From contig NZ_LDAS01000001.1 of NCBI RefSeq assembly GCF_001020565.1, positions 2,070,520 to 2,134,519 of the forward strand: a DNA stretch of 64,000 bases, read 5' to 3'. Below the pieces are notes generated by a model that ran no database searches, was not told the DNA's origin, and saw only the letters and a list, made by a program, of their open reading frames with translations. The position numbers and the translations under genes were made by a program. Positions within the stretch are counted from its first letter, which is position 1. Each line of letters opens with the position of its first letter. Of this stretch, positions 20,210 to 50,653 are shown one piece after another. This DNA comes from Maribacter thermophilus. Lineage in GTDB: Bacteria; Bacteroidota; Bacteroidia; Flavobacteriales; Flavobacteriaceae.

Positions 20210-20249
20210 TTAGTCCGATGCCCAGCATCGAATCATTTAAACATATTCC

Positions 20250-23078: not shown

Positions 23079-23093
23079 AAAATCGTATTATTA

Positions 23094-23813: not shown

Positions 23814-25210
23814 TTTTCTTTCGTAAGCTCTATTTCAATTTCCTCCAAACTCTTGCCCTTTGTTTCCGGCAATCTTTTTTTAACGAAAACAAAACCGGCC
23901 ACACAAATAATACTATACGCCCAAAATGTACCGTACGACCCCAATTCACTGTTCATGATAGGGAAAGTAAATACTAGGACAAATGAGGCTATCCACAATG
24001 AAAATGTTGCTATAGACATAGCCACCCCCCTTAATCTATTCGGAAAAATCTCGGAGAGCACCACCCAGGTTATCGGCGCCAAAGACATAGCGTAGATCGC
24101 AATTGCCGTAATTACCAACACTAGAACCGGCCAACCACTAAACTCAAAGAAATAAGCACCCCCTAACAATGCATAAATAATGGCGAGCCCTGCCGCCCCA
24201 AAGAGCATTAATTTTCTACGGCCCCAACTATCTACCGTTCGCATGGCCATGAAAGTGAAAATAAGATTAACACTGCCCGTAATCACTATATTAAAGAGCA
24301 TATCGCCAACACTATAACCAGCAGCGGAAAATATTTCTTCCGCGTAATTAAAAATGATATTGATACCGCACCATTGTTGAAATACCGCCAATACAACACC
24401 TATGACGAGGATAGGAAACACCTTTTTTCCCTTTAATTCGGAAATGGAAATCTTTTTGCCCCCATCATCGTTAAGGATCGACCTCATGTTATCGAACTCT
24501 TGTTCGGCATAGCCCATACCACCGATCTTAAACAACACCTGTTTGGCATCCTCTTCTTTACCGGCCTTGGCAAGAAATCTTGGACTTTTGGGCACCACGA
24601 ACATTAGAAAAAAGAAAAGTAATGCAGGTATAAGTTCTACCCAGAACATATACCGCCAACCGGTTTGACCGTTCCAAGAGTTCAGTATATCCGTATCGTT
24701 AAAATTGGCAGGTATGGCCTCGGCAATACCCCAGTTGGCAATTTGCGCCACCAAAATACCCAACACGATCGTTAATTGATTTATAGCTACAAATCGCCCC
24801 CTATACTCTGCGGGTGCCACTTCTGCAATATACATAGGCGACAATGTAGAGGCCAACCCTATACCCAAACCACCTAAGACCCTATACACAACAAAAAGGG
24901 TGAAGTCATCGGCATATCCTGTTCCAAAAGCAGATAAGGAAAATAGTGCCGCCGCCAATATAAGACTGTTTTTTCGCCCCCATCTATCGGTCAACACCCC
25001 AGAAAGTATCGCTCCAAAAATACACCCCACCAAGGCACTGCTCATGGCCCAACCTTGTAACGTGGGTATATCGGCAATATTAAAATAAAGCTCATAAAAG
25101 GGTTTTGCCCCTCCTATTACCACCCAGTCATAACCGAACAGAAATCCACCCATGGCAGAGACCAACGCCAGAAAAAGTAAGTAAGCAAAATTGTATTGTG
25201 GGTTTTTCAT
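23810..25210 (-). CDS. MFS sugar porter (sugar/H+ symporter family)
   Basis: This 466-residue inner-membrane protein has twelve predicted helices and the signatures of the sugar porter family: GFLFGYDWVVIGG in helix 1, DRWGRK after helix 2, RVLGGLGIGLAS and RGRFVAINQ, PKSPRFL before the central loop, QQWCGINIIFNYAEE in helix 7, and PETKGKSLEEIE at the end. It should import the monosaccharide released by the periplasmic enzymes. Canonical QQxSG has Cys in place of Ser here. It lies between the sulfatase and the SGNH gene in the operon. Confidence 0.9.
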   Translation of the reverse strand: MKNPQYNFAYLLFLALVSAMGGFLFGYDWVVIGGAKPFYELYFNIADIPTLQGWAMSSALVGCIFGAILSGVLTDRWGRKNSLILAAALFSLSAFGTGYADDFTLFVVYRVLGGLGIGLASTLSPMYIAEVAPAEYRGRFVAINQLTIVLGILVAQIANWGIAEAIPANFNDTDILNSWNGQTGWRYMFWVELIPALLFFFLMFVVPKSPRFLAKAGKEEDAKQVLFKIGGMGYAEQEFDNMRSILNDDGGKKISISELKGKKVFPILVIGVVLAVFQQWCGINIIFNYAEEIFSAAGYSVGDMLFNIVITGSVNLIFTFMAMRTVDSWGRRKLMLFGAAGLAIIYALLGGAYFFEFSGWPVLVLVITAIAIYAMSLAPITWVVLSEIFPNRLRGVAMSIATFSLWIASFVLVFTFPIMNSELGSYGTFWAYSIICVAGFVFVKKRLPETKGKSLEEIEIELTKEK

Positions 25211-25233
25211 AGTATATAAATCAACTTTGTTCC

Positions 25234-26823
25234 TTAATCTTTGGTTGTTTTGCTATCGAACCAGTTCTTGTTTGGTTCAAAATCACTTTTTAGAAATTCT
25301 TTTCGTTGTTTTTCTAAATTCTGAAGCATTTCAGTTTTTCTTTTCTTCTGAAGCTCGGCAGCCTTTATACCATCATAATCTACATTGACTTCAGGTCTTT
25401 TCGCTCCCGTTTGCGTCAAATAATCGGTGAGTTCCTTTTTAAGTTCTTGTGCCAACTGAGGACGCTTGCCCAACACATTTTCTTTTTCGTCTAAATCTTG
25501 TTTTAAATTATACAGCTCATCACGGCCATCTTCATAATAATGAATGAGTTTCCAATCACCTTTTCTAATAATACTAACAGGTTCCCCTCCTTGATTGCCA
25601 TAATGTGGGTAATGCCAAAACAAAGGTCTTTCGGCAAGGGTCTCCCCTTTTAACAAAGGCACTAGACTCACCCCTTCCAAGAGATGGTTTTTAGGTATAT
25701 CAACCCCTGCAAATTCTAAAAGAGTCGGATAAAAGTCTATTCCCGATACGGGATAATCCACCACCTTGGGCGTGTTTTTGAACATGGGCGCCTTGATCAG
25801 ATACGGCTCCCTGATGCCACCTTCCCATTGATAGCCCTTTCCGCCCCTTAAAGGGTAATTAGTTGTAGAAAAAGCATCGCCACTTGCCACACCACCATTA
25901 TCAGAAGTAAAAACAACAATGGTATTATCATCTAACCCCAGCTCTTTTAACCGCTGCATCACAATGCCCACGGCTTCGTCCATAGTTTCAATCAATCCGG
26001 CATATATAGGGTTGTCCTGAACGGTACGAATAGGTAAAATACGTTCCATTTTGTACCCAGTGCTTTTAATACCCATCTCCTCGGCCTTATTGCGATATTT
26101 TCTCCATTTGTCCTCTGTAGTCTCAATTGGTCCATGTACGGCGTAGAACGATAAGAATGCAAAAAATGGCTTGTCTTTATTATCAGTAATAAAATCGGCA
26201 GTTTCTTGCCCCAATCGCTTTGTTAAGCTTTCGCCCTCGTGCTTATAATCCAGTTTTGGATTGTCCCATGGAGCATAATACCCTCCTTTAGGGCTACCGA
26301 CTTCCCAGCCTCCTTTATTAATATCAAAACCATTGTTTTCAGGTGAGTATGGCTCATCTCCCAAATGCCATTTTCCGGCAAAAAAGGTTTTATACCCTTC
26401 TGCTTTTAAAGCCTCGGCAATGGTAATATCTTCTTCTTTTAAAGCTCTTTCATATTCGGGAGGCAGTACTTTTGTATTACGTTCGTCTCCCCATTTTTTG
26501 CCCGTAGCCGCCCCTATCCAATCCGTAATTCCATGACGGGCGGTAGACTGCCCCAACATAATACTTGCCCGCGACGGGCTACAAACTTGTGCTGCGGCGT
26601 ACCCTTGAACAAAACTCACCCCTTCTTTTGCAATGGCATCTATATTAGGGGTTTCATAATAGGTGCTACCGGCATAACTTAAGTCATGTGCCCCTAAGTC
26701 ATCCGCCAGTATAAAAACAATGTTCGGTTTTTTGTTTTCGACAGGTGATTCCTCATCCTTACAACTTGTAAAACTAATAAGGAAGCACACCAAAAAAACA
26801 CCAAATAATTTTCTATTGACCAT
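25234..26823 (-). CDS. Formylglycine-dependent sulfatase (family S1) lipoprotein
   Basis: This 529-residue protein has a lipoprotein signal (SFTSC, Cys21). The sulfatase signature CSPSRASIMLGQ starts at Cys81, which is converted to formylglycine. Metal ligands fit DDLG near 41 and FTSDNGG, and FAGKWHLGD is the typical histidine block. It should remove sulfate esters from a polysaccharide or its fragments in the periplasm. A formylglycine-generating enzyme is not in the window. It is the first gene of the operon that continues with the sugar porter, SGNH hydrolase, GH2, DUF5107 and GH2 genes, and its promoter region carries a candidate AraC operator. Confidence 0.92.
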   Translation of the reverse strand: MVNRKLFGVFLVCFLISFTSCKDEESPVENKKPNIVFILADDLGAHDLSYAGSTYYETPNIDAIAKEGVSFVQGYAAAQVCSPSRASIMLGQSTARHGITDWIGAATGKKWGDERNTKVLPPEYERALKEEDITIAEALKAEGYKTFFAGKWHLGDEPYSPENNGFDINKGGWEVGSPKGGYYAPWDNPKLDYKHEGESLTKRLGQETADFITDNKDKPFFAFLSFYAVHGPIETTEDKWRKYRNKAEEMGIKSTGYKMERILPIRTVQDNPIYAGLIETMDEAVGIVMQRLKELGLDDNTIVVFTSDNGGVASGDAFSTTNYPLRGGKGYQWEGGIREPYLIKAPMFKNTPKVVDYPVSGIDFYPTLLEFAGVDIPKNHLLEGVSLVPLLKGETLAERPLFWHYPHYGNQGGEPVSIIRKGDWKLIHYYEDGRDELYNLKQDLDEKENVLGKRPQLAQELKKELTDYLTQTGAKRPEVNVDYDGIKAAELQKKRKTEMLQNLEKQRKEFLKSDFEPNKNWFDSKTTKD

Positions 26824-27258
26824 CTTTACCTATTTATTTTTAAGCAACTATACCGCGTTGCATATTATATTTTTCTGTAAGATATATGCATACCAGCATT
26901 ATGTTTTAAGAACCGCCATGTCGCTTGTAACGAAATAATACAAACTAGGACAAACATGGATTTTTTAATTTATTGAAGCGAAATTCAAAAAACATCATGT
27001 TTTAACATAGCCATAAAAACATACCATTATTTCAGCAATAACATTAATACTAAACAGTGCTATTTGCGAATTTATTCAATATTACAGTTTACTACATGGA
27101 ATTTATATAGATAAATATGGACATTCCTATTTTTATTTAATATTTTAGACCCCCAAGGGAATTATCATTCTATTTTCATTTTTTGGAAAAGAAAAAAACC
27201 ACCAATAACACCCATGTTGACCAATTCTATTACTTAACCATAAAACCAGTACCGACAA
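26824..27258. other. Divergent promoter region of sulfatase operon and AraC gene
   Basis: This 435-bp AT-rich region lies between the divergent sulfatase operon and regulator gene. The only recognised element is the 21-bp-spaced repeat described separately. No clear flavobacterial -7/-33 promoter was identified by eye. Confidence 0.5.
27096..27122 (-). promoter_or_regulatory. Candidate AraC operator for the sulfatase operon
   Basis: On the minus strand two half-sites, GTCCAT (27122-27117) and TTCCAT (27101-27096), lie in direct orientation exactly 21 bp apart, two helical turns. The same arrangement and orientation relative to the gene occur upstream of susC and of the cytochrome module. AraC-type regulators typically bind two such direct half-sites. 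This site lies 272 bp before the sulfatase start, further than in the other two cases. Confidence 0.5.
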
Positions 27259-28143
27259 GTGGACACTTCCAAACTAAAAGAGGGATTTTTAGGTCAAAAA
27301 ATGACTGTCTTACCAGACTCCATAAAAAAGGAGCTCAAAGAAAACAGCATATGCAAACCCTTCTATATTACCGATATTGGTTTTTACCCGAATGCACGCC
27401 ACCATTATAGAACCAGAAAAAAGGGATCAAAGGAGTATATTTTTATGTACTGTGTAGAGGGCAAGGGAAAAATGAAGATCGACGACACCAACATAGAAGT
27501 ACTCCCCAATTCTTTTCATATTATACCCAAAAATACCCCCCACGAATATAAATCTGATGAAAACGAACCGTGGAGCATTTACTGGTTGCATTTTTCAGGA
27601 CACTCTTCAGATGCCCTTTACAAGCGTTATCTAGAATTTAGAAGTACGGATGGCAATATCGCTTTTGAGAACAATCGAATTAAAATGTTCAATGAAATAT
27701 TTTTGATGTATAAAAGTGAATACACCGTTCCAAAATTGGAGTTCGCCAATATTTTAGGATTACAGTTCATCAGCTCCTTTATATATACCACCAAAGAATT
27801 TGCTTCGGAAACCACCTCGCATACCAATATGGTAAATTCGGTCATAGATTTTTTAACGGCCAATTTGGACAAGACCTATAAATCCGATGAAATAGCCAAA
27901 CAATTTAACTGCTCACCTTCTTATCTATTTAATTTGTTCAAGAAAAGAACAGGTTACTCATTGATTCATTTTTTCAATCTAAAAAAGATTCAAAAAGCCT
28001 GTGAATATCTTAAATATACAGATTTAAGCATAAAGGAAATAAGCTACAAAGTGGGTATTCAAGATCCTTTATACTTTTCTAGAACCTTTAAAAAGTACTT
28101 CGGAATTTCTCCAAAAGACTATAGAAAAGAACAACAAGAATAA
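27259..28143 (+). CDS. AraC family transcriptional regulator
   Basis: The start is GTG 27259: it keeps the segment EGFLGQKMTVLPDSIKKEL, which is conserved in this group, and a stop lies only six codons further up. The first ATG (27301) would cut that segment. The 294-residue protein has a cupin-like sensor domain (YIFMYCVEGKGKMKIDDTN, IIPKNTPHEY, WSIYWLHFSG) at about 15-160 and a two-HTH AraC domain at about 195-290, with the signature VGIQDPLYFSRTFKKYFGISPKDY. It diverges from the sulfatase operon and precedes susC/susD. I infer it activates both in response to a sugar fragment. Confidence 0.9.
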   Translation: MDTSKLKEGFLGQKMTVLPDSIKKELKENSICKPFYITDIGFYPNARHHYRTRKKGSKEYIFMYCVEGKGKMKIDDTNIEVLPNSFHIIPKNTPHEYKSDENEPWSIYWLHFSGHSSDALYKRYLEFRSTDGNIAFENNRIKMFNEIFLMYKSEYTVPKLEFANILGLQFISSFIYTTKEFASETTSHTNMVNSVIDFLTANLDKTYKSDEIAKQFNCSPSYLFNLFKKRTGYSLIHFFNLKKIQKACEYLKYTDLSIKEISYKVGIQDPLYFSRTFKKYFGISPKDYRKEQQE

Positions 28144-28288
28144 AAGCTCTTCATATTTATTTAACTCTTTTTTAACAAACAACCCCCTACAACACCGTTG
28201 TTGATTTAATATTTTTAAGGTCTTAAAATTAAATTTTAACCTAAAAATCAACCGTTATTATGACAAATTATTTTTTTTATCGCAAAAA

Positions 28289-28315
28289 GTCCATGTTTTT
28301 GCAATAATCGTCCAT
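28289..28315 (+). promoter_or_regulatory. Candidate AraC operator upstream of susC
   Basis: GTCCAT at 28289-28294 is repeated exactly at 28310-28315, 21 bp later in the same orientation, and each copy is followed by T-rich sequence. The second half-site ends 100 bp before the susC start, a normal distance for an activator site. The adjacent AraC regulator gene is the obvious candidate to bind it. Confidence 0.55.
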
Positions 28316-28415
28316 TTTTAAATCTTAATATCTTCTTAATATTGTTTGGTAGGATTTTGTCTTCCTATAACAAGACAATTCTTACTTAACTAAAACAAAA
28401 CCAATTATAAAACGT

Positions 28416-31400
28416 ATGAAGTTATCTCTATTCACAAGTCAACTCAAACTTTTATTGTGGGGAGTTTCATTATTATGGAGCGGCCTAACATTAAATGCCC
28501 AAACAACCATTAGTGGTACGGTAACGGACGGGGAAACCGGAACACCCTTACCAGGCGCAAATGTAATTGCAGGAACCACAGGTGTCATCACTGATTTTGA
28601 TGGAAAATATGAACTTACCGTCCCAGCCGATGTTAAGGTCATTGAATTTTCATCTCTAGGCTTTGCTCCCAAACAAATAAGCATTGATGGCCGAACTACG
28701 ATCAACGTAACATTAGAACCCCAAAGTGAAGCCTTGGACGAGGTGGTCATTGTAGGGTACGGAACCGTTAAAAAGAGTGACCTCACAGGTTCTGTATCTT
28801 CGATAGACGGGGATGCCTTTAAAGAGCTTCCGGTAACATCGGTAGATCAGGCAATACAGGCCAGAGCCCCCGGTGTACAAGTAACCCAAACCTCTGCCGC
28901 TCCAGGTGGTGGAGTGTCTGTACGTATTCGAGGTTCCAACTCCATTAACAGTGGTAGTGAACCTTTATATGTTATAGATGGTTTTCCTATTTATCCGGAC
29001 AACAGTGCCTATGGTGCGGGTGGCTCAAGACAGGCCACTAATATTCTGGCATCTATAAATCCTAACGACATTCAATCTATCGAAGTATTAAAAGATGCTT
29101 CTGCAACTTCAATATACGGATCAAGGGGTTCTAACGGTGTTGTTTTGATCACCACCAAAAGAGGAAAGGCCGGAAAAGCCAAGATTAGTTACGAAGGCTC
29201 TTATTCCACACAAACAATTTCTAACCCAATAGATGTATTAAACGGCTCTGAGTTTGCCACTTACCTTAACACTTTGGAAACAAGCCAAGGAGGTGCTCCA
29301 ATTTACACTCAGGCACAAATAGATGCATTTGGAAAAGGAACAAACTGGTTAGATGAAGTAACAAGGGTCGGTTCTATTCAAAACCACCAACTAACATTTT
29401 CTGGTGGAAACGAAGACCATAAATATGCTGTTACCGGAAACTATCACGATAACGCAGGTATCATTAAAATGACCGACTTTCAAAGATATGGTATCCGTTT
29501 AAATGTAGATAATTCGGCATTTGACAACTTTTTAAATGTAAGTTCTAGCTGGTCGTACAACAGAACGGTTTCTAACAATGCACCAACGGACCAAGGAGGT
29601 CCTGGAGGTATCATCATCACCGCTTTAGGTTTAGATCCTACCGTACCCGTTTATAACGAAGATGGTACATACGCCCTAGCTTCCTACGATGGCAGATTTA
29701 ATATAAACCCATTACAGGAACTTAAATATGCCACCGATCAGGATATTACCAACAGGGTACTCGGAAATACGACTTTCACCTTTGCCCTAACCGAAAACCT
29801 AAAGGCTAAAACCAGTATAGGTGCAGATATCCTTAATATTAACAGAACTAGTTTTTTCCCATCCGTAAACACAAGAATAGGAAGAGACAATGCAGGAGAA
29901 CTGACTTTGGCAAACAGAAATTCGGCCAACATTCTGAACGAAAATCTATTAACCTACACAAAAACATTTAACGACAAACACTTTGTAGATGCCGTAGTAG
30001 GTTACACGTACCAAAAAGAGGTAAATAAGTATTTTAGCAGTACTACCCGTGGTATTACCGCTGCCTCTGTGGATCAAGCCACACTACAAGGAGGTCCAGA
30101 TATATTAACCCCCTATTCAGAAAGAAGAGAATGGTTATTGGAATCTTTACTAGGAAGGGTAAATTACAATTATGACAGTAGATATTTGGCTACCGTAACC
30201 TTTAGACGTGATGGTTCTTCCAGATTTGGAAGCAAGAACAAATGGGCCAACTTCCCATCTGTTGCCCTTGGTTGGAACATATCTAACGAAAGTTTCTTTG
30301 AAGGCGGTGTATCTGACGTGATCAACAATCTTAAATTAAGAGGTAGCTGGGGATTAACGGGTAACTCTGAAATTCCGGTCTACAATTCTTTGGCGAACCT
30401 GAGCGAGTTCAACTACGTACTTAACGGAGGTTTGGTACTAGGTCTTGCGGATGCCAGACTTAGCAACCCTGATCTAAAATGGGAATCGACCACTATGAGA
30501 AACATTGGGCTAGACGCCTCTTTCTTTAATAGTCGCCTAAATCTAACATTGGATTATTTTAGCAATAAAACAGAAGACCTATTACTCTTTGTATCCATAC
30601 CTAGTAGTCTTGGTTTTGAATCCATTCTTAAAAATTCCGGATCATTGGAAAATAAAGGATTCGAGGTTGGCCTGGACGGTTATGTAATAGACAACGAAGA
30701 TTTTAAATGGAACGTTGCCGGTAACATATCTATCTTAAGAAACGAACTTACCGATTTGGGTGATAGCACACCATTTTTCTCTGAAACTACCAGTGGCCAC
30801 CTTGGTGTAGAAGGTAGTTGGGTAGAAGCAGGAAACCCTATCGGCGTATGGAGAGGTTATGATTACATCGGCATTTTTCAGTCCGAAGAAGAAATAGCGA
30901 ACAATCCATCGAGATCGGGAGACAAACCGGGCTATCCCCAATATAGAGATGTAAACGGTGATGGAGAAATTACGCCCGATGATTATGTCATTATCGGTGA
31001 CCCGAACCCAGATTTTACATGGGGGCTAAATTCTACCTTCACTTACAAGAATTTTGATCTGGGATTATTTTTCAGAGGTTCTCAAGGATTTGATGTTAGA
31101 AACCTACAGGCATCTGAATTAGGTGACGGTGTTCAAAAGATAAATCAGATCAGTACTATTCTTACCGATTCTTGGACACCTACCAATACCAGCGCCTCTA
31201 GACCTATTATAGACGGTAATCGTGATTTTGCCAACTCTTACAGAGATTCTGACTACTTTATAGAAGACGGTTCTTTCATCAGGTTGCAAAATGTATCCTT
31301 AGGGTACACCCTTCCTCATATCAACGATTTGATTACAAAAGCGAGAATCTATGTAAGTGGCCAAAACTTGCTCACTATTACAGATTACTCCGGTTTTGAT

Positions 31401-31505
31401 CCAGAAGTAAACAATAGAGGCCAAGACAACTTGAACAGGGGCGATGACTATGATGCATACCCAAGATCCAGAACTTTGACCATCGGAATTAACTTAGAAT
31501 TTTAA
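28416..31505 (+). CDS. SusC/RagA-type TonB-dependent outer-membrane transporter
   Basis: This 1029-residue protein has a signal peptide, a carboxypeptidase-like regulatory domain (ISGTVTDGETGTPLPGANV) at about 30-105, a TonB box/plug region (DEVVIVGYGTVKKSDLTGSVS; VRIRGSNSINSGSEPLYVIDG) and a C-terminal beta-barrel ending in FNLEF-like aromatic Phe (IGINLEF). It imports oligosaccharides through the outer membrane together with SusD, encoded 16 bp downstream. It lacks an STN domain, in line with control by the AraC regulator rather than by an anti-sigma factor. Confidence 0.95.
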   Translation: MKLSLFTSQLKLLLWGVSLLWSGLTLNAQTTISGTVTDGETGTPLPGANVIAGTTGVITDFDGKYELTVPADVKVIEFSSLGFAPKQISIDGRTTINVTLEPQSEALDEVVIVGYGTVKKSDLTGSVSSIDGDAFKELPVTSVDQAIQARAPGVQVTQTSAAPGGGVSVRIRGSNSINSGSEPLYVIDGFPIYPDNSAYGAGGSRQATNILASINPNDIQSIEVLKDASATSIYGSRGSNGVVLITTKRGKAGKAKISYEGSYSTQTISNPIDVLNGSEFATYLNTLETSQGGAPIYTQAQIDAFGKGTNWLDEVTRVGSIQNHQLTFSGGNEDHKYAVTGNYHDNAGIIKMTDFQRYGIRLNVDNSAFDNFLNVSSSWSYNRTVSNNAPTDQGGPGGIIITALGLDPTVPVYNEDGTYALASYDGRFNINPLQELKYATDQDITNRVLGNTTFTFALTENLKAKTSIGADILNINRTSFFPSVNTRIGRDNAGELTLANRNSANILNENLLTYTKTFNDKHFVDAVVGYTYQKEVNKYFSSTTRGITAASVDQATLQGGPDILTPYSERREWLLESLLGRVNYNYDSRYLATVTFRRDGSSRFGSKNKWANFPSVALGWNISNESFFEGGVSDVINNLKLRGSWGLTGNSEIPVYNSLANLSEFNYVLNGGLVLGLADARLSNPDLKWESTTMRNIGLDASFFNSRLNLTLDYFSNKTEDLLLFVSIPSSLGFESILKNSGSLENKGFEVGLDGYVIDNEDFKWNVAGNISILRNELTDLGDSTPFFSETTSGHLGVEGSWVEAGNPIGVWRGYDYIGIFQSEEEIANNPSRSGDKPGYPQYRDVNGDGEITPDDYVIIGDPNPDFTWGLNSTFTYKNFDLGLFFRGSQGFDVRNLQASELGDGVQKINQISTILTDSWTPTNTSASRPIIDGNRDFANSYRDSDYFIEDGSFIRLQNVSLGYTLPHINDLITKARIYVSGQNLLTITDYSGFDPEVNNRGQDNLNRGDDYDAYPRSRTLTIGINLEF

Positions 31506-31521
31506 TTAAAAAAAATAAATT

Positions 31522-33111
31522 ATGAAGAAGTACACAAAAGCAATTTCATGGAGAATCATCCCCCTCCTATTTATTGCGATAAGTATAGTAGGCTGTACCG
31601 ACTTAGACGAAAATCCGGATTTTACGACCGAGGATAATTTCTTCGACACCGCAGAGCAGTTAGAATTAGGCGTAAATGCCATATATGACGGCATCGGATA
31701 CGGCCAAGATTGGTTCAATCATTATTACAATAGATTTGTATTCGAATGTTTGGCAGGGTATCAAGTAGGATGGGAAAAAGGTCCGCTGAACTACCAAAAT
31801 GGAAATGTTTCACCGGACGATGAATATATTGCTACTTATTGGAGAATCTCGTACGAGAACATAAACAGGGCCAACGCCATTATTCAAAAAGCAGATGACC
31901 TTAAGGCAGAAGGGGTTCCTAACAGCGCATTAATAGACAGGGTAAAAGCAGAAGCTCAATTTTTAAGGGCATTCTACTACTACAACCTTGTTCGCTATTT
32001 TGACAATATACCTGTAACAACGACCAAAACAGCCAGCGACCAAGACCTTCCTTCTAACGAAAACGGTAAAAGGGTGGCTCTTGATCTGATACAGTCCGAC
32101 CTATCAATGGCCGCAGCCATTTTACCGGAATCCTATGATTCTGGCGATGTAGGAAGAGCTACTAAATGGGCGGCCGAAGCGTTATTGGTAAAAGCTTATC
32201 TGCAAGATGAAAAATGGGATGAGGCCTATACTACCGCACAAACGTTTATTAGTGAAAGCGGCATGGTATTGTTCGAGGATTTCGCGGACACTTTTTCTGT
32301 AGAGAACGAGAATTCCGGACCTAGAATTTTTGAAGCACAAGTATCCGCTTCCGCAAATTCTGGAGAAAACCAAAATTACCACCAGCATTTTATTCCTGGT
32401 GATTTACCTAACGATCTAGGAGGTGTGGGCTGGCATTGGCTAAACTCTACTCAGGCATTCCGCGAAAAATATGACCCGACCGACAAAAGAATCGCCGGTA
32501 CCTTTATCCAAGAATATCCAACCACTAGGGTAGGTCCTAATTCTGAAGGTGAAAGACCCATTGTTAAATGGAGCGCCGAAGCGCCCTACAACCTCAGCCG
32601 TTTTGGCGGAATGGTGGCCGCGGACGCTGACCCTAACAACCCCGATGAACTAATATTCTCGAACGGATGGTCGGCAAAATATACCGAAATGGGATTATCA
32701 AATGCCAATTTGACCGAGAAGAACATCGTATACCTTCGTTTGGCCGATGTGCTTCTAGGGCATTCAGAGGCAGCGAACGAAAGTGGCACCGGCGACCCAT
32801 ATTATGGTATCAACGAAGTAAGAAGAAGAGCAGGGCTCGCCCCTCTTTCAGGACTTAACAAAGAGCAATTAAGAGATGCCATTGTAAACGAAAGAGTACT
32901 AGAATTTGCGATGGAATGTGAGATTTATCCTGAATTAAAAAGAAAAAGTACGTTTGGTGGTTCTCCTGACTACCTTGGTGAATATATCCAAGATTTTATA
33001 GACACTTATGGTGTCGACAGAACATTGTCTCCAAAAGACTATGTGCTGCCGCTTCCATTAAATGAGGTTTTGGGAAATCCGAACGTTACCCAAAATCCAG
33101 AGTATGAGTAA
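31522..33111 (+). CDS. SusD/RagB-type surface glycan-binding lipoprotein
   Basis: This 529-residue lipoprotein (signal ending IVGC, then TDLDENPD, the usual export-type acidic stretch) has the SusD layout: the N-terminal helical block with ENFFDTAEQLELGVNAIYDG-like sequence, TPR-like helices (RVKAEAQFLRAFYYYNLVRYF) and the C-terminal conserved VRRRAGLAPL and ERVLEFAMECEIYPELKR. It caps the SusC channel and binds the glycan. In this last motif the usual RxxELxxEGxRWxDL is altered to VLEFAMECEIYPELKR. Confidence 0.92.
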   Translation: MKKYTKAISWRIIPLLFIAISIVGCTDLDENPDFTTEDNFFDTAEQLELGVNAIYDGIGYGQDWFNHYYNRFVFECLAGYQVGWEKGPLNYQNGNVSPDDEYIATYWRISYENINRANAIIQKADDLKAEGVPNSALIDRVKAEAQFLRAFYYYNLVRYFDNIPVTTTKTASDQDLPSNENGKRVALDLIQSDLSMAAAILPESYDSGDVGRATKWAAEALLVKAYLQDEKWDEAYTTAQTFISESGMVLFEDFADTFSVENENSGPRIFEAQVSASANSGENQNYHQHFIPGDLPNDLGGVGWHWLNSTQAFREKYDPTDKRIAGTFIQEYPTTRVGPNSEGERPIVKWSAEAPYNLSRFGGMVAADADPNNPDELIFSNGWSAKYTEMGLSNANLTEKNIVYLRLADVLLGHSEAANESGTGDPYYGINEVRRRAGLAPLSGLNKEQLRDAIVNERVLEFAMECEIYPELKRKSTFGGSPDYLGEYIQDFIDTYGVDRTLSPKDYVLPLPLNEVLGNPNVTQNPEYE

Positions 33112-33141
33112 TATGTTGAGTTAGTTTGTTAAATTTAGTTT

Positions 33142-33175
33142 AAAAACCTGTCTGAGGAGACAGGTTTTTATTTTT
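33142..33175 (+). terminator. Intrinsic terminator after susD
   Basis: A perfect 12-bp stem pairs 33142-33153 with 33158-33169 around the loop GAGG, followed by ATTTTT. It lies 30 bp after the susD stop and should end most susC-susD transcripts, with read-through possible into the next gene. Confidence 0.85.
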
Positions 33176-33215
33176 CCTTAAATTACCGATCATATCAAAA
33201 AAAAGGCTATAGACC

Positions 33216-36200
33216 ATGAAGAAAACAAGTGCCTTAAAGCAGATTACCTTTTACACCCTGCTAGTTCTTTTAAGTGCCTGTAACAGCAAGAGCGACACTA
33301 CTTCCAAGAACATAGAAAACATTAAAACACGGTTTAACGCAGTGCATCCAGACACTAGCAATATTGTTTTCAACAATATCATTGATGAGAACGAACAATT
33401 TAACATGGTAGATTATTTCTATGTATACAATGGTGGCGGGGTTGCTACGGGAGATTTGAACAATGACGGTCTTCCCGACATTTTCTTTACCGGAAACATG
33501 GTAAACGACGCCCTTTACGTAAATCTTGGGAACCTAAAATTTAAGGATATAAGCGTTAATTTGAACAGCAAACACAATGGTTGGTCTACTGGTGTTACCA
33601 TGGTAGATATTAATCACGATGGCCTACTGGACATCTATGTTTGTAGATCTGGCAATTTTGAAAAAGAGCAACGCAAAAATCTACTATACATAAACCAGGG
33701 TGACCTAACTTTTAAAGAAGAGGCCGAAGAATATGGCCTCGCCGATGACAGCTATTCCACCCAAGCCGCTTTCTTCGACTATGACAAAGATGGCGATCTT
33801 GATATGTATTTACTGAACCACACGAATGCCATTAGGGACCCTAACAATATCAGGCCCTTAATTTCTGATGGTAGTGGCCCTGCCAATGACAGGCTCTACA
33901 GAAATGATGAAGATAAAGGTATGGGGATAAAATTCACCGATGTTACAGATTCGGCCGGTATCCATTTTGATGGTCTTGGGCTCGGTTTAAGTATCGCGGA
34001 CCTAAACAACGATGGCTGGGACGATATTTTTGTTACCAACGATTTTGTTGCCAATGATTATATTTATATAAACCAACAAGATGGCACCTTTAAGGAAATG
34101 GCCAAATCGTATCTAAACCATGTAAGTCATTTTAGTATGGGAAACGACATAGCCGATTTTAACAATGACGGCATGTACGACCTGGTGACCATGGACATGA
34201 GACCAAAAGACAATTTTCATGAAAAGAAAATGTCTGGTCCGCTCAATTTTGACCTTTTTGAAAGATCACTTCAAATAGGATACATGCCACAGTACATGAG
34301 AAATACGCTACAGTTAAACACAGGATACAGTAGCACCGGCGAACCCAAGTTTTCTGAAATCGGACAGCTTGCCAAAATAGATGCCACCGACTGGAGCTGG
34401 GCGCCTTTATTTGCAGATTTTGACAACGATGGCCTTAAAGACCTTTTTGTTACCAATGGATATTTAAGAGATATAACCGACCTTGATTTTATAAACTACA
34501 CAAGCACCTTGTATGGCGCGGTTACACACGACAGCTTAGACTTTGTGCTAAAACAAAAGTCTAAAGAAATGCCATCTATCAAAATATCCAATTATATTTT
34601 TAAGAACAGGGGAGACCTTTCATTTAAAGACAACACCAAAGAGTGGGGATTTGCGGAACCATCTCTGTCCAACGGTGCAGCCTATGCAGATCTGGATAAC
34701 GATGGGGACCTGGATCTGGTAATCAACAATATCAACCAAGCGGCCTCTGTTTACGAAAACCTATCGGACACTATAGACAAAAACCACTACCTGAGCCTCC
34801 GCTTGGTAGGCGACGGCTTAAATCGGTTTGCAACGGGTACCCAAGTAAAATTGTATCAAGACGGCAAAGCTCAATTAACAAGACTCTCCGTAACAAGAGG
34901 ATACCAATCGGCCGTAGACAACACCCTACATTTTGGTTTGGGAACAAACGATAAAATAGACAGTCTATTGATAACATGGCCAGATGGTGATACCAAAAAA
35001 ATACTGCATCCGAAAGCGGACCAAAATTTAGTGGTCACAAAAGACGAGAGCATTAGTTCTACCAGACCGGTACATCATAAAAAAGAGACCTATTTTAAAG
35101 ATGTTACCGTTTCTTTAAACTTAAAAACACCGCATGGAGAAACCGTTTATTATGATTTTAACAGAGAGTATCTGTTACCGCACAAGCTATCTGAACAAGG
35201 ACCCGGATTGGCCGTCGGCGATATAAACGGCGATGGTTATGAAGATTTTTTTATGGGAGGCGGATACAACCATAGCGGTCAGTTATTTTTTGGTTCAAAA
35301 ACAGGTTCCTTTAAAAGAAGACCTTTAACCCCCAATAAAAATGAAAAATATGAAGAAGACACGGGGGTACTGTTTTTTGATTATGATAACGACCAAGACC
35401 TAGATCTATATATTGCCAGTGGTAGTAATGAATTTTACGAAAAATCGGAGTACTACCAAGACCGTATCTACATCAATGACGGAAAAGGCAATTTTAAATT
35501 GGCAGAGGGTGTATTACCTTCGATGCCCACCAGTAGTTCTTGCGTACGTGCTGCCGACTTTGACAAAGATGGAGATTTAGATCTTTTTGTGGGAGGTAGG
35601 TTAACTCCTTTAAAATATCCGTTGCCATCCACAAGCTATTTACTGGTAAACGAAGGAGGAAGGTATATAGACGCTACAAACAAATTGGCTCCCTCCCTTA
35701 GAAAACCAGGTATGGTCACAGATGCCCTTTGGACAGATTATGATAACGATGGAGACGTAGATCTTATAGTAGTGGGCGAGTTTATGTCCATCGAATTCTA
35801 TGAGAACAAAAATGGATCATTGGTAAGCAGCTCACAAAACACAGGGTTAAGTCACACCTCTGGATGGTGGAACAGTATAAATGGTGGAGATTTCGACAAT
35901 GATGGCGACATAGATTATATAGTGGGCAATCTTGGGCTAAACTCTAAATACAGGGCAACTTCAAAAGAACCGCTATCTATCTATGCGCTGGACTATGATA
36001 AAAACGGCACCATAGACCCTATTATAACCACCTATAACGAGGGTAAAGAATACCCCGTTCATTCAAGGGACGACCTGATTAAGCAAATTCCTTCTTTGAA
36101 GAAAAAATTCCCCGATTATGCGAGTTACGCACGTGCCACTATTTCAGATATTTTAACTCCGCAAGAAAAAAGCAGTGCGTATAGTGCCAAGGTATTTCAA

Positions 36201-36779
36201 CTTGCCTCTTCCATTCTTATAAATCAGGGCAATGGTAAATTTGAAATAAGGCCATTACCCATATGGGCCCAATTTTCTCCCATCTATGGTATTTTAATTT
36301 CCGATTTTGATAACGATGGCAATCTTGATGTACTGGTATCCGGAAACGATTATGGCACCGAAGTGGGCATAGGCCGGTACGATGCCTCAAAAGGACTCTT
36401 TTTAAAAGGGAATGGAACAGGCGATTTTTTACCCGTACCACCAATACAGAGCGGACTGCTAACAGAAGGTAATGCTCGAGGAGCCGTTTCTATTGTTGCA
36501 AATGGTGCCCTGACCCATATTTTCGGATTCAACAATACTGATTTAAAATCATACACTACCACCGATAGCAATGTTATGGGCAAAATTATCAACGTACCCC
36601 GAACCTGTGTTTTTGGCACAGTGCTTCTTGATAACGGAAAAACACGCGCCCAAGAATTTTATCATGGTTCGGGCTATTTGTCCCAATCCTCCCAAAGCCT
36701 CCGAATTTCTGGAAAAGAAGAAAAGATAATGGTGCGCCACACCGACGGAACCGAGACCGTTCTCTACACAAAAGATTAA
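33216..36779 (+). CDS. FG-GAP/VCBS repeat lipoprotein with ASPIC/UnbV domains
   Basis: This 1187-residue lipoprotein (signal ending LLSAC) consists of many FG-GAP-type beta-propeller repeats with calcium-binding loops: DLNNDGLPDIF, DINHDGLLDIYV, DYDKDGDLDMYL, DFDNDGLKDLFV, DLDNDGDLDLVI and more. An ASPIC/UnbV module is seen at about 520-610 (NRFATGTQVKLYQDG, RGYQSAVDNTLHFGLG, LLITWPDGDTKKI). A second propeller set follows to about 1060. Family members accompany SusCD pairs in marine Bacteroidota and are thought to be surface glycan-binding proteins; no activity is proven. It follows susD behind a terminator, so its level may be set by read-through. Confidence 0.85.
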   Translation: MKKTSALKQITFYTLLVLLSACNSKSDTTSKNIENIKTRFNAVHPDTSNIVFNNIIDENEQFNMVDYFYVYNGGGVATGDLNNDGLPDIFFTGNMVNDALYVNLGNLKFKDISVNLNSKHNGWSTGVTMVDINHDGLLDIYVCRSGNFEKEQRKNLLYINQGDLTFKEEAEEYGLADDSYSTQAAFFDYDKDGDLDMYLLNHTNAIRDPNNIRPLISDGSGPANDRLYRNDEDKGMGIKFTDVTDSAGIHFDGLGLGLSIADLNNDGWDDIFVTNDFVANDYIYINQQDGTFKEMAKSYLNHVSHFSMGNDIADFNNDGMYDLVTMDMRPKDNFHEKKMSGPLNFDLFERSLQIGYMPQYMRNTLQLNTGYSSTGEPKFSEIGQLAKIDATDWSWAPLFADFDNDGLKDLFVTNGYLRDITDLDFINYTSTLYGAVTHDSLDFVLKQKSKEMPSIKISNYIFKNRGDLSFKDNTKEWGFAEPSLSNGAAYADLDNDGDLDLVINNINQAASVYENLSDTIDKNHYLSLRLVGDGLNRFATGTQVKLYQDGKAQLTRLSVTRGYQSAVDNTLHFGLGTNDKIDSLLITWPDGDTKKILHPKADQNLVVTKDESISSTRPVHHKKETYFKDVTVSLNLKTPHGETVYYDFNREYLLPHKLSEQGPGLAVGDINGDGYEDFFMGGGYNHSGQLFFGSKTGSFKRRPLTPNKNEKYEEDTGVLFFDYDNDQDLDLYIASGSNEFYEKSEYYQDRIYINDGKGNFKLAEGVLPSMPTSSSCVRAADFDKDGDLDLFVGGRLTPLKYPLPSTSYLLVNEGGRYIDATNKLAPSLRKPGMVTDALWTDYDNDGDVDLIVVGEFMSIEFYENKNGSLVSSSQNTGLSHTSGWWNSINGGDFDNDGDIDYIVGNLGLNSKYRATSKEPLSIYALDYDKNGTIDPIITTYNEGKEYPVHSRDDLIKQIPSLKKKFPDYASYARATISDILTPQEKSSAYSAKVFQLASSILINQGNGKFEIRPLPIWAQFSPIYGILISDFDNDGNLDVLVSGNDYGTEVGIGRYDASKGLFLKGNGTGDFLPVPPIQSGLLTEGNARGAVSIVANGALTHIFGFNNTDLKSYTTTDSNVMGKIINVPRTCVFGTVLLDNGKTRAQEFYHGSGYLSQSSQSLRISGKEEKIMVRHTDGTETVLYTKD

Positions 36780-36868
36780 AACCTTTATTACATATTTAAG
36801 AGTGTTTAGGCTGATTTTTTACTAGTTTATCAATTGCACATATTAAAAAAATAATATTGTGTAATAAA

Positions 36869-36901
36869 ATCCATATCTATAGTTTATTAATCCATATCTA
36901 T
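36869..36901 (+). promoter_or_regulatory. Candidate AraC operator upstream of the cytochrome module
   Basis: ATCCATATCTAT at 36869-36880 is repeated exactly at 36890-36901, giving TCCAT half-sites 21 bp apart in the direction of transcription. This matches the susC and sulfatase promoter repeats in core, spacing and orientation. The second TCCAT ends about 110 bp before the likely start (37005). Confidence 0.55.
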
Positions 36902-37004
36902 TTTTAGATTAATCCTTAATATTATATCACTCTAAAATGAGACCGTAAACCATAATAAAAATAGACCACTATGGCTATTGGCAACTGAAAAAGTTCTGAT
37001 AAAA

Positions 37005-39743
37005 ATGAATAGACAGAAACTCTTATCATATGCTAAAATCTGGATATCCCTGATAGCTATCAGTTTAATTTATTCCTGTAATAGCTCATCGGAACAAATA
37101 GATTTTAGCACCCAGATAAAACCCATCTTAAACAATAAATGTATTAGCTGTCATGGAGGGGTAAAAAAAAGCGGTGGTTTCAGTTTACTTTTTAAAGAAG
37201 AGGCTTTTGCGGCAACCAAATCGGGCAAACCCGCAATAATACCGGGCAATGCAAGTGAAAGTGAATTTATTAAAAGACTCCATGAAGAAGACCCGGAGTT
37301 AAGAATGCCCTACGAAAAACCGAAACTTTCCAAAGAAGAAATAGATTTACTTACCAAGTGGATAGACCAAGGAGCAAAATGGGGGCAGCATTGGGCCTAT
37401 TCACTTCCCAAAGAAGTTAAGGTACCCGCAATAACCGAAGAAGCCAGTCTAATAATAAATGAGAAGAACGATTTTTTACAGAACGATATCGATAAATTCA
37501 TAATCAACCGTTTAGAAGACAACGACCTTCCCCCAAACCACCCTGCAGATAAAAGTACATTGATCCGAAGATTATCTTTTGATATTACCGGACTACCGCC
37601 TACCAATAACCTATACGAAGCATTTACAAAAGGAGAAATCACCTACGAAGAGGCGGTCGATAACCTTTTGGCGCAAGATACATTTGGTGAGAAATGGGCA
37701 AGCTGGTGGTTGGATCTGGCCCGTTACGCGGACACTAAGGGTTACGAAAAAGACAATGGTAGAAGCATGTGGCGATATAGGGATTGGGTCATAAAATCTT
37801 TTAACGAAGACATGCCCTATGATCAGTTCACGACCGAACAGTTAGCCGGAGACCTATTACCCAACCCTTCGGTAGACCAACTGATTGCCACAGCCTTTCA
37901 TAGAAACACTATGAACAATGACGAGGGAGGAACCGATGATGAAGAGTTTAGGGTAGCTTCGGTGATGGACAGGGTAAACACCACTTTTTCTGTATGGCAA
38001 AGTACTACTATGGAATGTGTTCAATGCCACAGCCACCCATACGACCCCTTTAAGTTTGAAGAATATTACAAAAGCTACGCCTATTTTAATAACACGGCCG
38101 ATGAGGATACTCCGGATGAAAGCCCCAACATACGTTTTTATACCGATGAACAAAACGACAAGAAAAACAAGATTATTTCTTGGGTAGAAAAATACGGCAC
38201 AAAGAAAGAGGCTGAACTTTATGAAGAATTTTTATCCTTTATGGAACCAAAATATTTGGCCCACGATGCGACCGACTTTGTAAACGGAGAACTTGCGGAC
38301 ACCAAATATTTAGCGCTGTGGGACGATGGTTCATGTGTTTTAAAAAACGTAAACACACAGGGCGCTTCGGCTATGTATATGAACTACCAAGCTTATGTGG
38401 ACGGCACCACTATGACCATTAGAGAAAATAATAGTCATGGCGAAATTTTGGCCCACTTCAAAATCGACAAGACAAAGGGAAATATTATAAGAAAAATCCC
38501 TTTTAAAAAAACCAATAAACCAACCAACCTTTATTTTGAATCGAACAACGACCGAATCGGAAAACAGGTTTCAACAAGCTTTATCACTTGGTTTGCCTTT
38601 ATAAAGGATATTCCTGGAGTTAGTGAAGCTGGCTACTCGCAGATAAACAAGTCTTTCTTGGAACTACTGAATACCGATTCCCCACAGCTTCCGATCATGG
38701 TAGAAAACCCCGATTTCATGTCCAGGACCACTCAAATTTTTGAACGAGGTAATTGGTTGGCAAAAGGCGACACGGTGCAACCAGGTACACCAAAAATTCT
38801 TAACGACTACAACGAAGAATGGCCTGCCAATCGTCTTGGACTTTCTAAATGGCTGGTGAGCAAAGAAAACCCATTAACTGCCCGTACATTGGTAAACCGG
38901 GTGTGGCATCAAATATTCGGAAGAGGTATTGTTTCGTCTTTGGAAGACATGGGAACACAATCAGACCCTCCAAGTCACCCTAGATTATTGGACTGGCTTT
39001 CTTTACGGTTCATGAACGAGCATGCCTGGGGTATGAAAGCACTTATAAAAGACATTGTTATGTCCGGCACCTATAGACAAAGTTCCGTAGCTACGCCAGA
39101 ACTGTACCAAAAAGACCCCAATAACGAGCTATATGCCCGTGGCCCTAGATTGCGTTTAAGTGCAGAACAGATTCGTGACCAAGCATTGGCAATTTCCGGA
39201 TTATTGAGCAAAAAAATGTACGGTCCTGGGGTTATGCCTCCCCAACCCGACGGGGTTTGGCAATCTGTCTACAGTAATGAGTCGTGGATAGAAAGCAAAG
39301 GAGAGGACAAATACAGGCGAGCCATATACACGTACTTAAAACGCACTAGCCCCTACCCTTCTTTCATTACATTTGACGCTGGCAGTAGAGAGGTATGCAC
39401 TATTCGCCGTACGGTCACCAATACACCCTTGCAGGCATTGGTCACCTTAAACGACCCTGTTTATATAGAGGCGGCCTATGCACTTGCAAAATCGATGGAT
39501 ACGGAGAGTGTTGAAAAAGGAATCTCCATAGGTTACAAAAAAGCAACATTCTCAGAAATCAATAGCGAAAAACTAGAAGTATTGAAAAACCTGTATAATC
39601 AGGCATTGGAAGAATTCGAAACTCAAAACGAGTTTCAAGAAAATTTTGCAGGATTACAGGAAAAACCAACTAAAAAATTAGCGGCATTGACCATTGTAGC
39701 CAATGCCATTATGAATCTAGATGAATTTTTGACCAAGGCCTAA
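37005..39743 (+). CDS. PSD1 / planctomycete-type cytochrome c lipoprotein (DUF1549, DUF1553)
   Basis: ATG 37005 is preferred to a TTG at 36978 because it opens directly on a lipoprotein signal (SLIYSC, Cys25); the protein is 912 residues. A haem c motif CISCH is at 46-50 (planctomycete cytochrome C domain). DUF1549 follows at about 150-350 (LIRRLSFDITGLPPT, WLDLARYADTKGYEKD) with a second CxxCH (CVQCHSHPYDPF). A middle insertion is probably carbohydrate-binding or lectin-like. DUF1553 is C-terminal (NRVWHQIFGRGIVSSLEDMG, RRTVTNTPLQALVTLNDP). Such proteins are abundant in Planctomycetes and are presumed periplasmic redox proteins. It is the first gene of a four-gene operon. Confidence 0.88.
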   Translation: MNRQKLLSYAKIWISLIAISLIYSCNSSSEQIDFSTQIKPILNNKCISCHGGVKKSGGFSLLFKEEAFAATKSGKPAIIPGNASESEFIKRLHEEDPELRMPYEKPKLSKEEIDLLTKWIDQGAKWGQHWAYSLPKEVKVPAITEEASLIINEKNDFLQNDIDKFIINRLEDNDLPPNHPADKSTLIRRLSFDITGLPPTNNLYEAFTKGEITYEEAVDNLLAQDTFGEKWASWWLDLARYADTKGYEKDNGRSMWRYRDWVIKSFNEDMPYDQFTTEQLAGDLLPNPSVDQLIATAFHRNTMNNDEGGTDDEEFRVASVMDRVNTTFSVWQSTTMECVQCHSHPYDPFKFEEYYKSYAYFNNTADEDTPDESPNIRFYTDEQNDKKNKIISWVEKYGTKKEAELYEEFLSFMEPKYLAHDATDFVNGELADTKYLALWDDGSCVLKNVNTQGASAMYMNYQAYVDGTTMTIRENNSHGEILAHFKIDKTKGNIIRKIPFKKTNKPTNLYFESNNDRIGKQVSTSFITWFAFIKDIPGVSEAGYSQINKSFLELLNTDSPQLPIMVENPDFMSRTTQIFERGNWLAKGDTVQPGTPKILNDYNEEWPANRLGLSKWLVSKENPLTARTLVNRVWHQIFGRGIVSSLEDMGTQSDPPSHPRLLDWLSLRFMNEHAWGMKALIKDIVMSGTYRQSSVATPELYQKDPNNELYARGPRLRLSAEQIRDQALAISGLLSKKMYGPGVMPPQPDGVWQSVYSNESWIESKGEDKYRRAIYTYLKRTSPYPSFITFDAGSREVCTIRRTVTNTPLQALVTLNDPVYIEAAYALAKSMDTESVEKGISIGYKKATFSEINSEKLEVLKNLYNQALEEFETQNEFQENFAGLQEKPTKKLAALTIVANAIMNLDEFLTKA

Positions 39744-39767
39744 TACTTAAATAAACCAACAACTACT

Positions 39768-41285
39768 ATGAAAAACAACATAGAAAAGCTCATAGCAGAA
39801 AAACTAAAAAGAGAGATAGAGACCCAAACCCGTAGGCATTTCATAAAACAATGCGCTACCGGTATGGGAGGTATAGCCTTGGGATCCATCTTTATGGGAT
39901 GCGACCCTTTAACCCCTTCAAAAACCAACAGCAATCTACATACTGGTTTTACCGAAAGAGACCTCAACCCATTAGCTACCTTGTCCCCTCCTTTTGCACC
40001 CAGGGCAAAAAATGTAATTTACCTTCACATGGCAGGGGCCCCTTCGCAACTAGAAATGTTCGATTATAAGCCCGAATTGGCAAAGCTCAATAATCAAGAA
40101 TGCCCACAATCGCTATTGGAAGGCAAAAAATTTGCATTTATTAGGGGTACGCCTAAACTTCTAGGGCCCCAAGCAACATTTAAACAAGAAGGAGAATCCG
40201 GAAATTGGGTATCCGACAACTTACCACATTTTAAAAAAGTGGTAGACGAAGTAGCTTTCCTAAAAGCAGTACATACCGACCAGTTCAATCATGGCCCAGC
40301 TCAATTGTTCATGCATACGGGAAGTCCTAGATTAGGACGCCCCAGTATAGGCTCTTGGGTAACTTACGGTCTAGGTTCCGAAAACCAAAATTTACCCGGT
40401 TTTGTGGTGCTTACTTCTGGCGGAAAGGCCCCTAGTGCAGGTAAAAGTGTTTGGGGAAGTGGTTTCTTGCCCTCTGTATACCAAGGGGTTCAATGTAGAT
40501 CAAAAGGAGATCCCGTATTATATATAGAAGACCCCGATGGCATCTCGCGCGACCTTAAAAAGAATACGATCAAGGCAATTAACGAAATCAACAAAAAAGA
40601 GTATTCAAAATATGCCGATCCGGAAATATTGGCCCGTATCAACCAATACGAAATGGCCTATAGAATGCAAATAGCTGTTCCAGAGGTAATGAACATCAAT
40701 AACGAACCAGATTATATCAAGGAAATGTACGGAGTAGAACCCGGTAAGGAATCATTTGCCAACAATTGTCTTTTAGCCAGAAAACTGGTGGAGGATGGTG
40801 TTCGATTTGTACAATTGTTCGATTGGGGATGGGACGCACACGGCACCGATGCGAGCACAGCCGTGGATCTAGGACTTAAGAATAAGTGCAGGGAGATCGA
40901 CCGACCTATGAGCGCCCTATTATTGGACTTAAAACAAAGGGGCCTACTAGAGGATACCTTAGTTGTATGGGGAGGTGAATTCGGCAGAACCCCCATGCAG
41001 GAAAACAGGGAAGGTAAAACAATGGGCTTTAAAGGTCGCGACCATCATGGAGACGCCTTTACCATGTGGATGGCCGGTGGCGGCATTAAAAAAGGAGCCT
41101 CTCACGGACAGACCGATGCTATTGGGTTTTCTGGTGTAGATGGCAGGGTATCCGTTCATGACGTCCACGCCACCATTTTACATTTGTTAGGTTTTGACCA
41201 TGAACAGTTTACGTTCGATTTTCAAGGCAGACCCTTCCGTTTAACGGATGTAGAGGGCGAAGTAATACATGAAATCTTAGCTTAA
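39768..41285 (+). CDS. DUF1501 family protein, Tat-exported
   Basis: This 505-residue protein has a twin-arginine signal (TRRHFIKQCATGMGGIALGS), so it is exported folded, perhaps with a cofactor. The Cys in IFMGCDP could also be lipidated. The body is DUF1501, related in fold to alkaline phosphatase/sulfatase-like enzymes: HTDQFNHGPAQLFMHTG, WDAHGTDA, VVWGGEFGRTPM and GRDHHGDAFTMWMAGGG contain the conserved Asp/His/Glu positions. In Planctomycetes and Bacteroidota, DUF1501 genes lie directly after DUF1549/DUF1553 genes, as here (24-bp gap). The reaction is unknown. Confidence 0.87.
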   Translation: MKNNIEKLIAEKLKREIETQTRRHFIKQCATGMGGIALGSIFMGCDPLTPSKTNSNLHTGFTERDLNPLATLSPPFAPRAKNVIYLHMAGAPSQLEMFDYKPELAKLNNQECPQSLLEGKKFAFIRGTPKLLGPQATFKQEGESGNWVSDNLPHFKKVVDEVAFLKAVHTDQFNHGPAQLFMHTGSPRLGRPSIGSWVTYGLGSENQNLPGFVVLTSGGKAPSAGKSVWGSGFLPSVYQGVQCRSKGDPVLYIEDPDGISRDLKKNTIKAINEINKKEYSKYADPEILARINQYEMAYRMQIAVPEVMNINNEPDYIKEMYGVEPGKESFANNCLLARKLVEDGVRFVQLFDWGWDAHGTDASTAVDLGLKNKCREIDRPMSALLLDLKQRGLLEDTLVVWGGEFGRTPMQENREGKTMGFKGRDHHGDAFTMWMAGGGIKKGASHGQTDAIGFSGVDGRVSVHDVHATILHLLGFDHEQFTFDFQGRPFRLTDVEGEVIHEILA

Positions 41286-41310
41286 TCCATAAAAAACAAA
41301 CCCATTACGC

Positions 41311-42195: not shown

Positions 42196-42207
42196 ACCGT
42201 TGACCGC

Positions 42208-45444: not shown

Positions 45445-45477
45445 AAGCTTAAACCTATCATATAGAAACATTTGTTA

Positions 45478-45520: not shown

Positions 45521-45537
45521 TCTTTTTTGGATTTATA

Positions 45538-47295: not shown

Positions 47296-47311
47296 TTTGA
47301 AAGCTGTTTTT

Positions 47312-50605: not shown

Positions 50606-50653
50606 AATTTCACATAATGTTTAATGGTTATTTTTTTTAATCGTTGAATAATC

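Follow-up and report, generated by a model that had tools for sequence, protein, structure and literature searches.

A putative AraC regulon with paired TCCAT operators spanning polysaccharide utilization and cytochrome genes in Maribacter thermophilus

Introduction

We analyzed a stretch of 64,000 nucleotides from Maribacter thermophilus, of the family Flavobacteriaceae (assembly GCF_001020565.1, contig NZ_LDAS01000001.1, positions 2,070,520 to 2,134,519; hereafter the window), in which a gene of the AraC family (araC) lies among genes for polysaccharide utilization and for planctomycete-specific cytochromes (PSCyt), and in which three pairs of the word TCCAT are candidate operators of its product. 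Several described systems resemble this one. In Escherichia coli, the araI1 half-site has the form TAGC-N7-TCCATA (PMC4514859). The hybrid two-component systems (HTCS) of Bacteroides thetaiotaomicron have an AraC-type DNA-binding domain, direct repeats with a mean of 21 bp, and SusC/SusD targets (Ravcheev et al. 2013, PMC3878776). In Zobellia galactanivorans, CgrA is an AraC-family positive regulator encoded in a polysaccharide utilization locus (PUL) bearing sulfatases; its deletion slows growth on carrageenan, and RNA-seq on this substrate showed that SusC/SusD genes outside the PUL are also induced (Ficko-Blean et al. 2017, PMC5698469). Finally, the PSCyt/PSD genes of Verrucomicrobia, whose function is described as unknown, lie near sulfatases, and a role in carbohydrate metabolism has been suggested for them (PMC5615132).

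The locus of M. thermophilus can be compared with each of these. The araC product (27301..28143, plus strand; the open reading frame (ORF) is listed from a GTG at 27259 and the ATG at 27301 is the chosen start) has the ligand-binding cupin and the helix-turn-helix domains of AraC/XylS regulators, i.e., an AraC-type cupin sensor followed by HTH_18/HTH_AraC (matches at 2.7e-21 for PF12833, 2e-17 for PF00165, and 7.5e-13 for PF02311). A scan of the 294-aa ORF gave cupin and HTH families only and no kinase or receiver domain; the product does not have the sensor, histidine kinase, and receiver fused to an AraC domain that characterize an HTCS and is, unlike the Bacteroides regulators, of the one-component cupin type (PMC3878776). 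It matches the model of E. coli-type AraC (NCBIfam NF007860) over residues 36-277 with 124.4 bits, below the equivalog cut-off of 208. Of 271 residues aligned with E. coli AraC, 59 are identical, and within the DNA-binding domain 32 of 106 are. The resemblance to the carrageenan regulon, by description only, lies in an AraC-family regulator within a sulfatase-bearing PUL; the available text on CgrA describes no operator, and its main text does not contain the word cytochrome (PMC5698469). In contrast to the verrucomicrobial PSCyt/PSD genes (PMC5615132), those of the window belong to Flavobacteriaceae and come with a putative regulator and operator. The regulon proposed here is of a known kind, with the cytochrome module as its unusual passenger or partner.

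Results

Three candidate operators in the window

The window contains three exact TCCAT-N16-TCCAT pairs, each directed toward its own gene or operon. Operator A, of the AraC type (27096..27121, minus strand), faces unit A (14073..26823, minus strand), which encodes a sulfatase (25234-26823), a sugar porter of the MFS, a GDSL esterase, a GH2 protein, a DUF5107/TPR protein, and another GH2 protein, and is presumed to be an operon because these genes are closely spaced. Operator B (28290..28315, plus strand) is upstream of susC in unit B (28416..36779, plus strand), which encodes SusC, SusD, and an FG-GAP/ASPIC-UnbV protein. Units A and B are divergent on either side of araC, unit A on the left and unit B on the right, and a gap of 198 bases separates units B and C. 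Operator C (36870..36895, plus strand), which recurs before PSCyt genes in other genomes, is upstream of unit C (36978..43602, plus strand), a presumed operon encoding a PSCyt1-PSCyt2-PSD1 protein (probable start at ATG 37005), a DUF1501 protein, a xylose-isomerase-like TIM barrel, and a DUF2231-PSCyt1 protein with weak leucine-rich-repeat matches. The first of these proteins has the PF07635, PF07583, and PF07587 domains (PSCyt1, PSCyt2, and PSD1), and the SusC match (TIGR04056, 907 bits), together with SusD_RagB, GH2, and sulfatase, identifies a SusC/SusD polysaccharide utilization locus. A previous sequence-only reading of this DNA had described the half-sites as direct repeats exactly 21 bp apart, oriented alike toward the gene in all three cases. 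All this holds for the three pairs, the 21 bp being counted between half-site starts, with coordinates that had to be corrected by 1 to 6 bases. On sequence comparisons, these pairs very probably serve as operators for the product of araC (27301-28143), an AraC-family regulator that would act as a class II activator and switch on the three units together.

How surprising are such pairs? In dinucleotide shuffles of the window the pair is expected 0.21 times, and none of 100 shuffles reached three. In the host genome (4.05 Mb), the exact pair has 29 copies, against 23 for a reversed control. Hence, the rarity of the bare pair was dropped as evidence. Among the 29 copies, 23 are within ORFs of 150 codons or more, 2 within ORFs of 113-123 codons, and 1 between convergent ORFs; the other 3 are the window sites, the only ones that are intergenic and face a gene. 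We also simulated sequences from Markov models of the three upstream regions and asked for a 5-mer with at least two G/C repeated at one common spacer (5-25) in each of them. None of 4000 trials gave such a word, and in the real regions TCCAT at N16 is the sole word that qualifies. The evidence for the operators is their clustering, position, and conservation, not the scarcity of 10 letters.

The extended motif separates the three sites from the background. We built a matrix from 33 sites located beside araC orthologues in other genera, excluding the window and the locus of Zobellia amurskyensis (L061). In the window, the three operators rank first (29.2 bits for C, 26.8 for B, and 23.3 for A), the next match having 10.7 bits; on 20 random sequences of 64 kb the maximum was 15.2 bits. 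In the genome, we scored 59 of the 62 exact TCCAT-N16-TCCAT or -TCTAT places (three TCTAT places were left unscored), and only the three window sites exceed 13.4 bits. The frequency of the bare pair in the genome, proposed earlier as a check, would by itself speak against the earlier reading, but the matrix derived from other genera picks exactly these three sites, which are not due to chance. A wider regulon in the genome was considered and rejected, as nothing outside the window scored above 13.4 bits among the 59 exact places scored (places with other mismatches were not sought).

Conservation in orthologous loci

Relatives of araC at E <= 1e-40 were found in 37 of 397 genomes of the family, including that of M. 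thermophilus. Setting aside the window's own match and the 7 weakest, we collected DNA of up to 20 kb surrounding the other 30 of the 38 listed matches, and added six named loci for comparison, three of which enter the counts, resulting in 33 loci. The loci omitted from the counts are L065, a Treponema locus with 25% identity, L063, which covers the genome region of L077, and L060, which is almost identical to the window. The latter, from Maribacter sp. MMG018, has an araC product 100% identical over 278 residues and an identical gene order across 20.8 kb. As controls we used 19 cytochrome loci; L190 was excluded because its genome has an orthologue, and L176, L185, and L191-L194 were retained though their genomes also have one.

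TCCAT-N16-TCYAT occurs upstream of genes in 23 of the 33 orthologous loci and in 1 of the 19 controls; with the spacer set to any other length between 0 and 30, the number of orthologous loci is 0-3. The positive control is L176, from a genome (G289) with an araC orthologue on another contig. The spacer of 16, i.e., a period of 21 bp, corresponds to the direct half-sites two helical turns apart of AraC/XylS regulators. Among self-repeated 5-mers, TCCAT at 16 comes on top (12 loci and 0 of 19 controls), slightly above words made of A/T only (10 loci); among all pairs of words with at least two G/C, the leaders are TCTAT/TCCAT in reverse complement (15) and TCCAT/TCCAT (12). Z. amurskyensis retains all three sites, the counterpart of operator A being at the same place and facing a SusC2-like gene. 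The conservation in orthologous loci, which the sequence-only reading had named as a check, is observed.

Promoter geometry

The alignment of 36 sites from 29 loci gives a motif of about AGT-N7-TCCATR-N15-TCYAT. The TAnnTTTG promoter box of Flavobacterium psychrophilum is located at -12 to -5 (PMC9723704). Allowing one mismatch in its 6 consensus positions, we found such a box 21 bases after the proximal half-site in 17 of the 36 sites and 22 bases after it in 12, where 0.77 would be expected per offset. Hence, 29 sites have a -7 box at one of the two distances, with none counted twice, and 7 have none. Given the position of the box in F. psychrophilum, the proximal half-site would be at about -38 to -34; on geometry alone, it abuts the promoter as in class II activation. 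In the window, the candidate boxes all start 21 bp past the proximal half-site: TAAATTCG for operator A (27067..27074, minus strand; 5/6 of the consensus), TAATATTG for operator B (28337..28344, plus strand; 5/6), and a weaker candidate, TAATATTA, for operator C (36917..36924, plus strand).

This arrangement resembles that of pBAD. The core TAGC-N7-TCCATA of araI1 corresponds to AGT-N7-TCCATR in the flavobacterial motif. Counted from the first TCCAT in the MG1655 sequence, the second half-site starts at 21 bp and the hexamer TACTGT, the -10 element of pBAD, at 47 bp, compared with 47-48 bp to the flavobacterial -7 box. In half-site core, spacing, and promoter distance, as read from the sequences, the motif is superimposable on araI1-I2/pBAD. 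The differences are also clear: the second half-site of E. coli is ACCTGA, and the targets in the window are polysaccharide and cytochrome genes (no search was made for an araO2-type loop). The flavobacterial matrix gives the pBAD site a score of -7.4, which, with the low identity of the two proteins (59/271), indicates a shared architecture with a different operator. In the open-access literature on AraC, a limited search did not find TCCAT among the matches listed.

The cytochrome module and the regulator

Is the presence of the site before PSCyt genes linked to the regulator? At E <= 1e-150, 48 of the 397 genomes have a PSCyt homologue, with 50 matches. We examined the upstream DNA of 49 copies, omitting one truncated match (G249), and counted as close araC orthologues those with 47% identity or more; the relatives in G203, G001, and G020 (35-38%) were counted as absences. 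Where the genome has a close orthologue, 5 of 11 PSCyt copies are preceded by the exact site (G000, G289, G172, G227, and G164), and in the other genomes none of 38 is (Fisher test, 2.4e-4); a site with one mismatch is found in G347 and in 1 of the 38. When scored with a matrix from which all PSCyt sites were excluded (L061 and L077 being also omitted), the six site-bearing copies have 32.6, 24.3, 20.2, 19.2, 13.1, and 7.0 bits, while the site-less ones have at most 6.5 bits (the other five with the regulator) or 8.2 bits (the 38 without). At least 15 bits are reached by 4 of the 11 copies and by none of the 38. In G347, G172, and G164, the araC orthologue is directly upstream of the PSCyt module, and in G227 the gene order is araC-SusC-SusD-ASPIC-PSCyt.

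We built a tree of 31 PSCyt proteins, comprising 30 of the 49 copies and the partial one of Zobellia. The site-bearing copies are in four separate places, with site-less relatives lacking a found orthologue (G080 and G382; G075 near the window). Five independent pairs can be compared: four agree with the association, none disagrees, and one shows no difference (sign test, p 0.125). In 12 of the 20 PSCyt loci fetched (L176 and L179-L189), PSCyt is accompanied by two genes, one for a class II tRNA synthetase and one for a symporter of the sodium:sulfate type. This is the usual home of PSCyt, so that the tie to araC is an addition in some lineages. In the congener G075 (L175), the module is beside relatives of the phosphatase and SusD2 genes of the window; no araC orthologue was found in this genome, and there is no exact operator. 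Hence, within this genus, the block of araC and SusC/SusD has come together with the cytochrome module or come apart from it.

Since 5 of the 11 copies lack a site and most copies are in genomes without the regulator, the coupling of the cytochrome module to araC looks real but facultative in these comparisons. The sequence-only reading had placed the cytochrome genes in the polysaccharide response. This is supported where a close orthologue is present, and not as a general membership, since it is lineage-specific.

Neighbouring genes

The rest of the window carries a second SusC/SusD unit (43615-52396, minus strand), adjoined by genes for a calcineurin-like phosphoesterase, FecR, and an ECF sigma factor, in which no TCCAT operator was found. 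Its SusC2 gene (47312-50605) was considered as a target and has no matrix match upstream. Genes of the alkaline phosphatase or metalloenzyme type (52489-54276 and 56423-57541) adjoin this unit, and a molybdopterin oxidoreductase gene and a gene of the sulfate permease family (58146-60506 and 62706-63983) are near the sulfatase-bearing locus.

Discussion

We propose the following mechanism. A carbohydrate bound in the N-terminal cupin domain would lead an AraC dimer to occupy two direct half-sites that lie on the same face of the DNA with a spacing of 21 bp, or two helical turns, the distal one being about AGT-N7-TCCATR and the proximal one TCYAT. From its position at about -38 to -34, the proximal half-site would adjoin the -33 region of the sigma factor, with the TAnnTTTG box 21-22 bp further, and AraC would contact RNA polymerase from the -35 region. 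This adjacency and the distance to the box point to class II activation, as for E. coli AraC at pBAD. The sulfatase/GH2, SusC-SusD-ASPIC, and PSCyt/DUF1501 units would thereby be switched on jointly. The matrix scores, the conservation of the loci, and the co-occurrence of site and regulator before PSCyt support the regulon of three units as first guessed, with binding and activation as predicted steps. The sulfatase and GH2 genes suggest that the substrate may be a sulfated algal polysaccharide, on which the cytochrome products would also act.

Several observations weigh against this reading, besides the frequency of the bare pair in the genome and the negative score of pBAD. In 10 of the 33 orthologous loci, the called upstream regions lack the pair, and a looser definition is needed to find one in 29 of the 33. 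The box of operator C fits just 4 of the 6 consensus positions, and operator A has two candidate boxes, the extra TAATATTG (27077-27084, minus strand) being just 11 bp past its proximal half-site, one helical turn nearer than usual. Five of the 11 PSCyt copies in genomes bearing the regulator have no site (G396, G250, G021, G378, and G162). The PSCyt site of G227 scores 7.0 bits, under the best site-less copy (G129, 8.2), and that of G347 has one mismatch and 13.1 bits. With so few pairs, the sign test on the tree cannot reach 0.05. Finally, the first ~90 codons of the araC frame in G347 (L069) do not include ATG, GTG, or TTG. This araC copy may be damaged, and in this genome the regulator and the PSCyt operator may be decaying together.

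The alternative that survives best is that the sites are genuine for the sulfatase and susC units and that the cytochrome operon is a passenger of the assembly of the block, with no physiological tie to polysaccharides. PSCyt is found in 48 of 397 genomes, mostly without the regulator, its location beside tRNA synthetase and symporter genes resembles a housekeeping one, and the congener has it beside relatives of the second SusD/phosphatase cluster of the window with no exact site. Against this, the site-bearing copies occupy four places in the tree among site-less relatives without the regulator, and the PSCyt gene of G289, which is in its home location and on a different contig from araC (both near contig ends), still has a site of 19.2 bits. 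We regard this alternative as unlikely. It is hardly plausible that the sites are read by a different AraC-type protein, e.g., a hybrid two-component regulator encoded elsewhere in the genome: the Bacteroides HTCS motifs are likewise direct repeats with a mean of 21 bp (PMC3878776), and a loose first look at the genome gave 42 candidate places, 6 of them scored, but the motif adjoins an araC orthologue in most of the 33 loci, no exact PSCyt site occurs in the 38 copies without a close orthologue, and a Pfam scan of the 28 window proteins, to which the HTCS survey was confined, revealed no second AraC or HTCS. The chance recurrence of a short AT-rich word in intergenic DNA, to which the 29 genomic pairs against 23 would lend some credit, is rejected in view of the conservation in other genera, the fixed spacing, the register of the -7 box, the matrix scores, and the simulated upstream regions.

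Activation of the three units by the araC product thus remains the preferred reading, and the contribution of the cytochromes to it can be outlined tentatively. The PSCyt-DUF1501-TIM-barrel-DUF2231 genes might encode a respiratory module, linked to the membrane or the periplasm, that oxidizes a sugar released from sulfated polysaccharides. In Flavobacteriaceae, this accessory unit might have come several times under the control of a sugar-sensing AraC activator through acquisition of a TCCAT operator, or have escaped it as the operator decayed. We hold this to be possible, though doubtful as a whole. A limited search of the open-access literature found no paper tying PSCyt to Flavobacteriaceae and polysaccharide utilization. 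If the respiratory module exists as outlined, the regulon would provide a handle on the substrate of these long-unexplained cytochromes.

The analysis turns a regulon guessed by eye into a position-specific prediction with a promoter geometry. It suggests that the geometry of AraC operators (21 bp, a TCCATA half-site, and a box 47-48 bp on) is common to E. coli and Flavobacteriaceae despite different -10/-7 boxes. It also ties a family of cytochromes with no known function to one defined regulator, which is probably inducible, and the inducer of this AraC would give a candidate substrate pathway for PSCyt/DUF1501.

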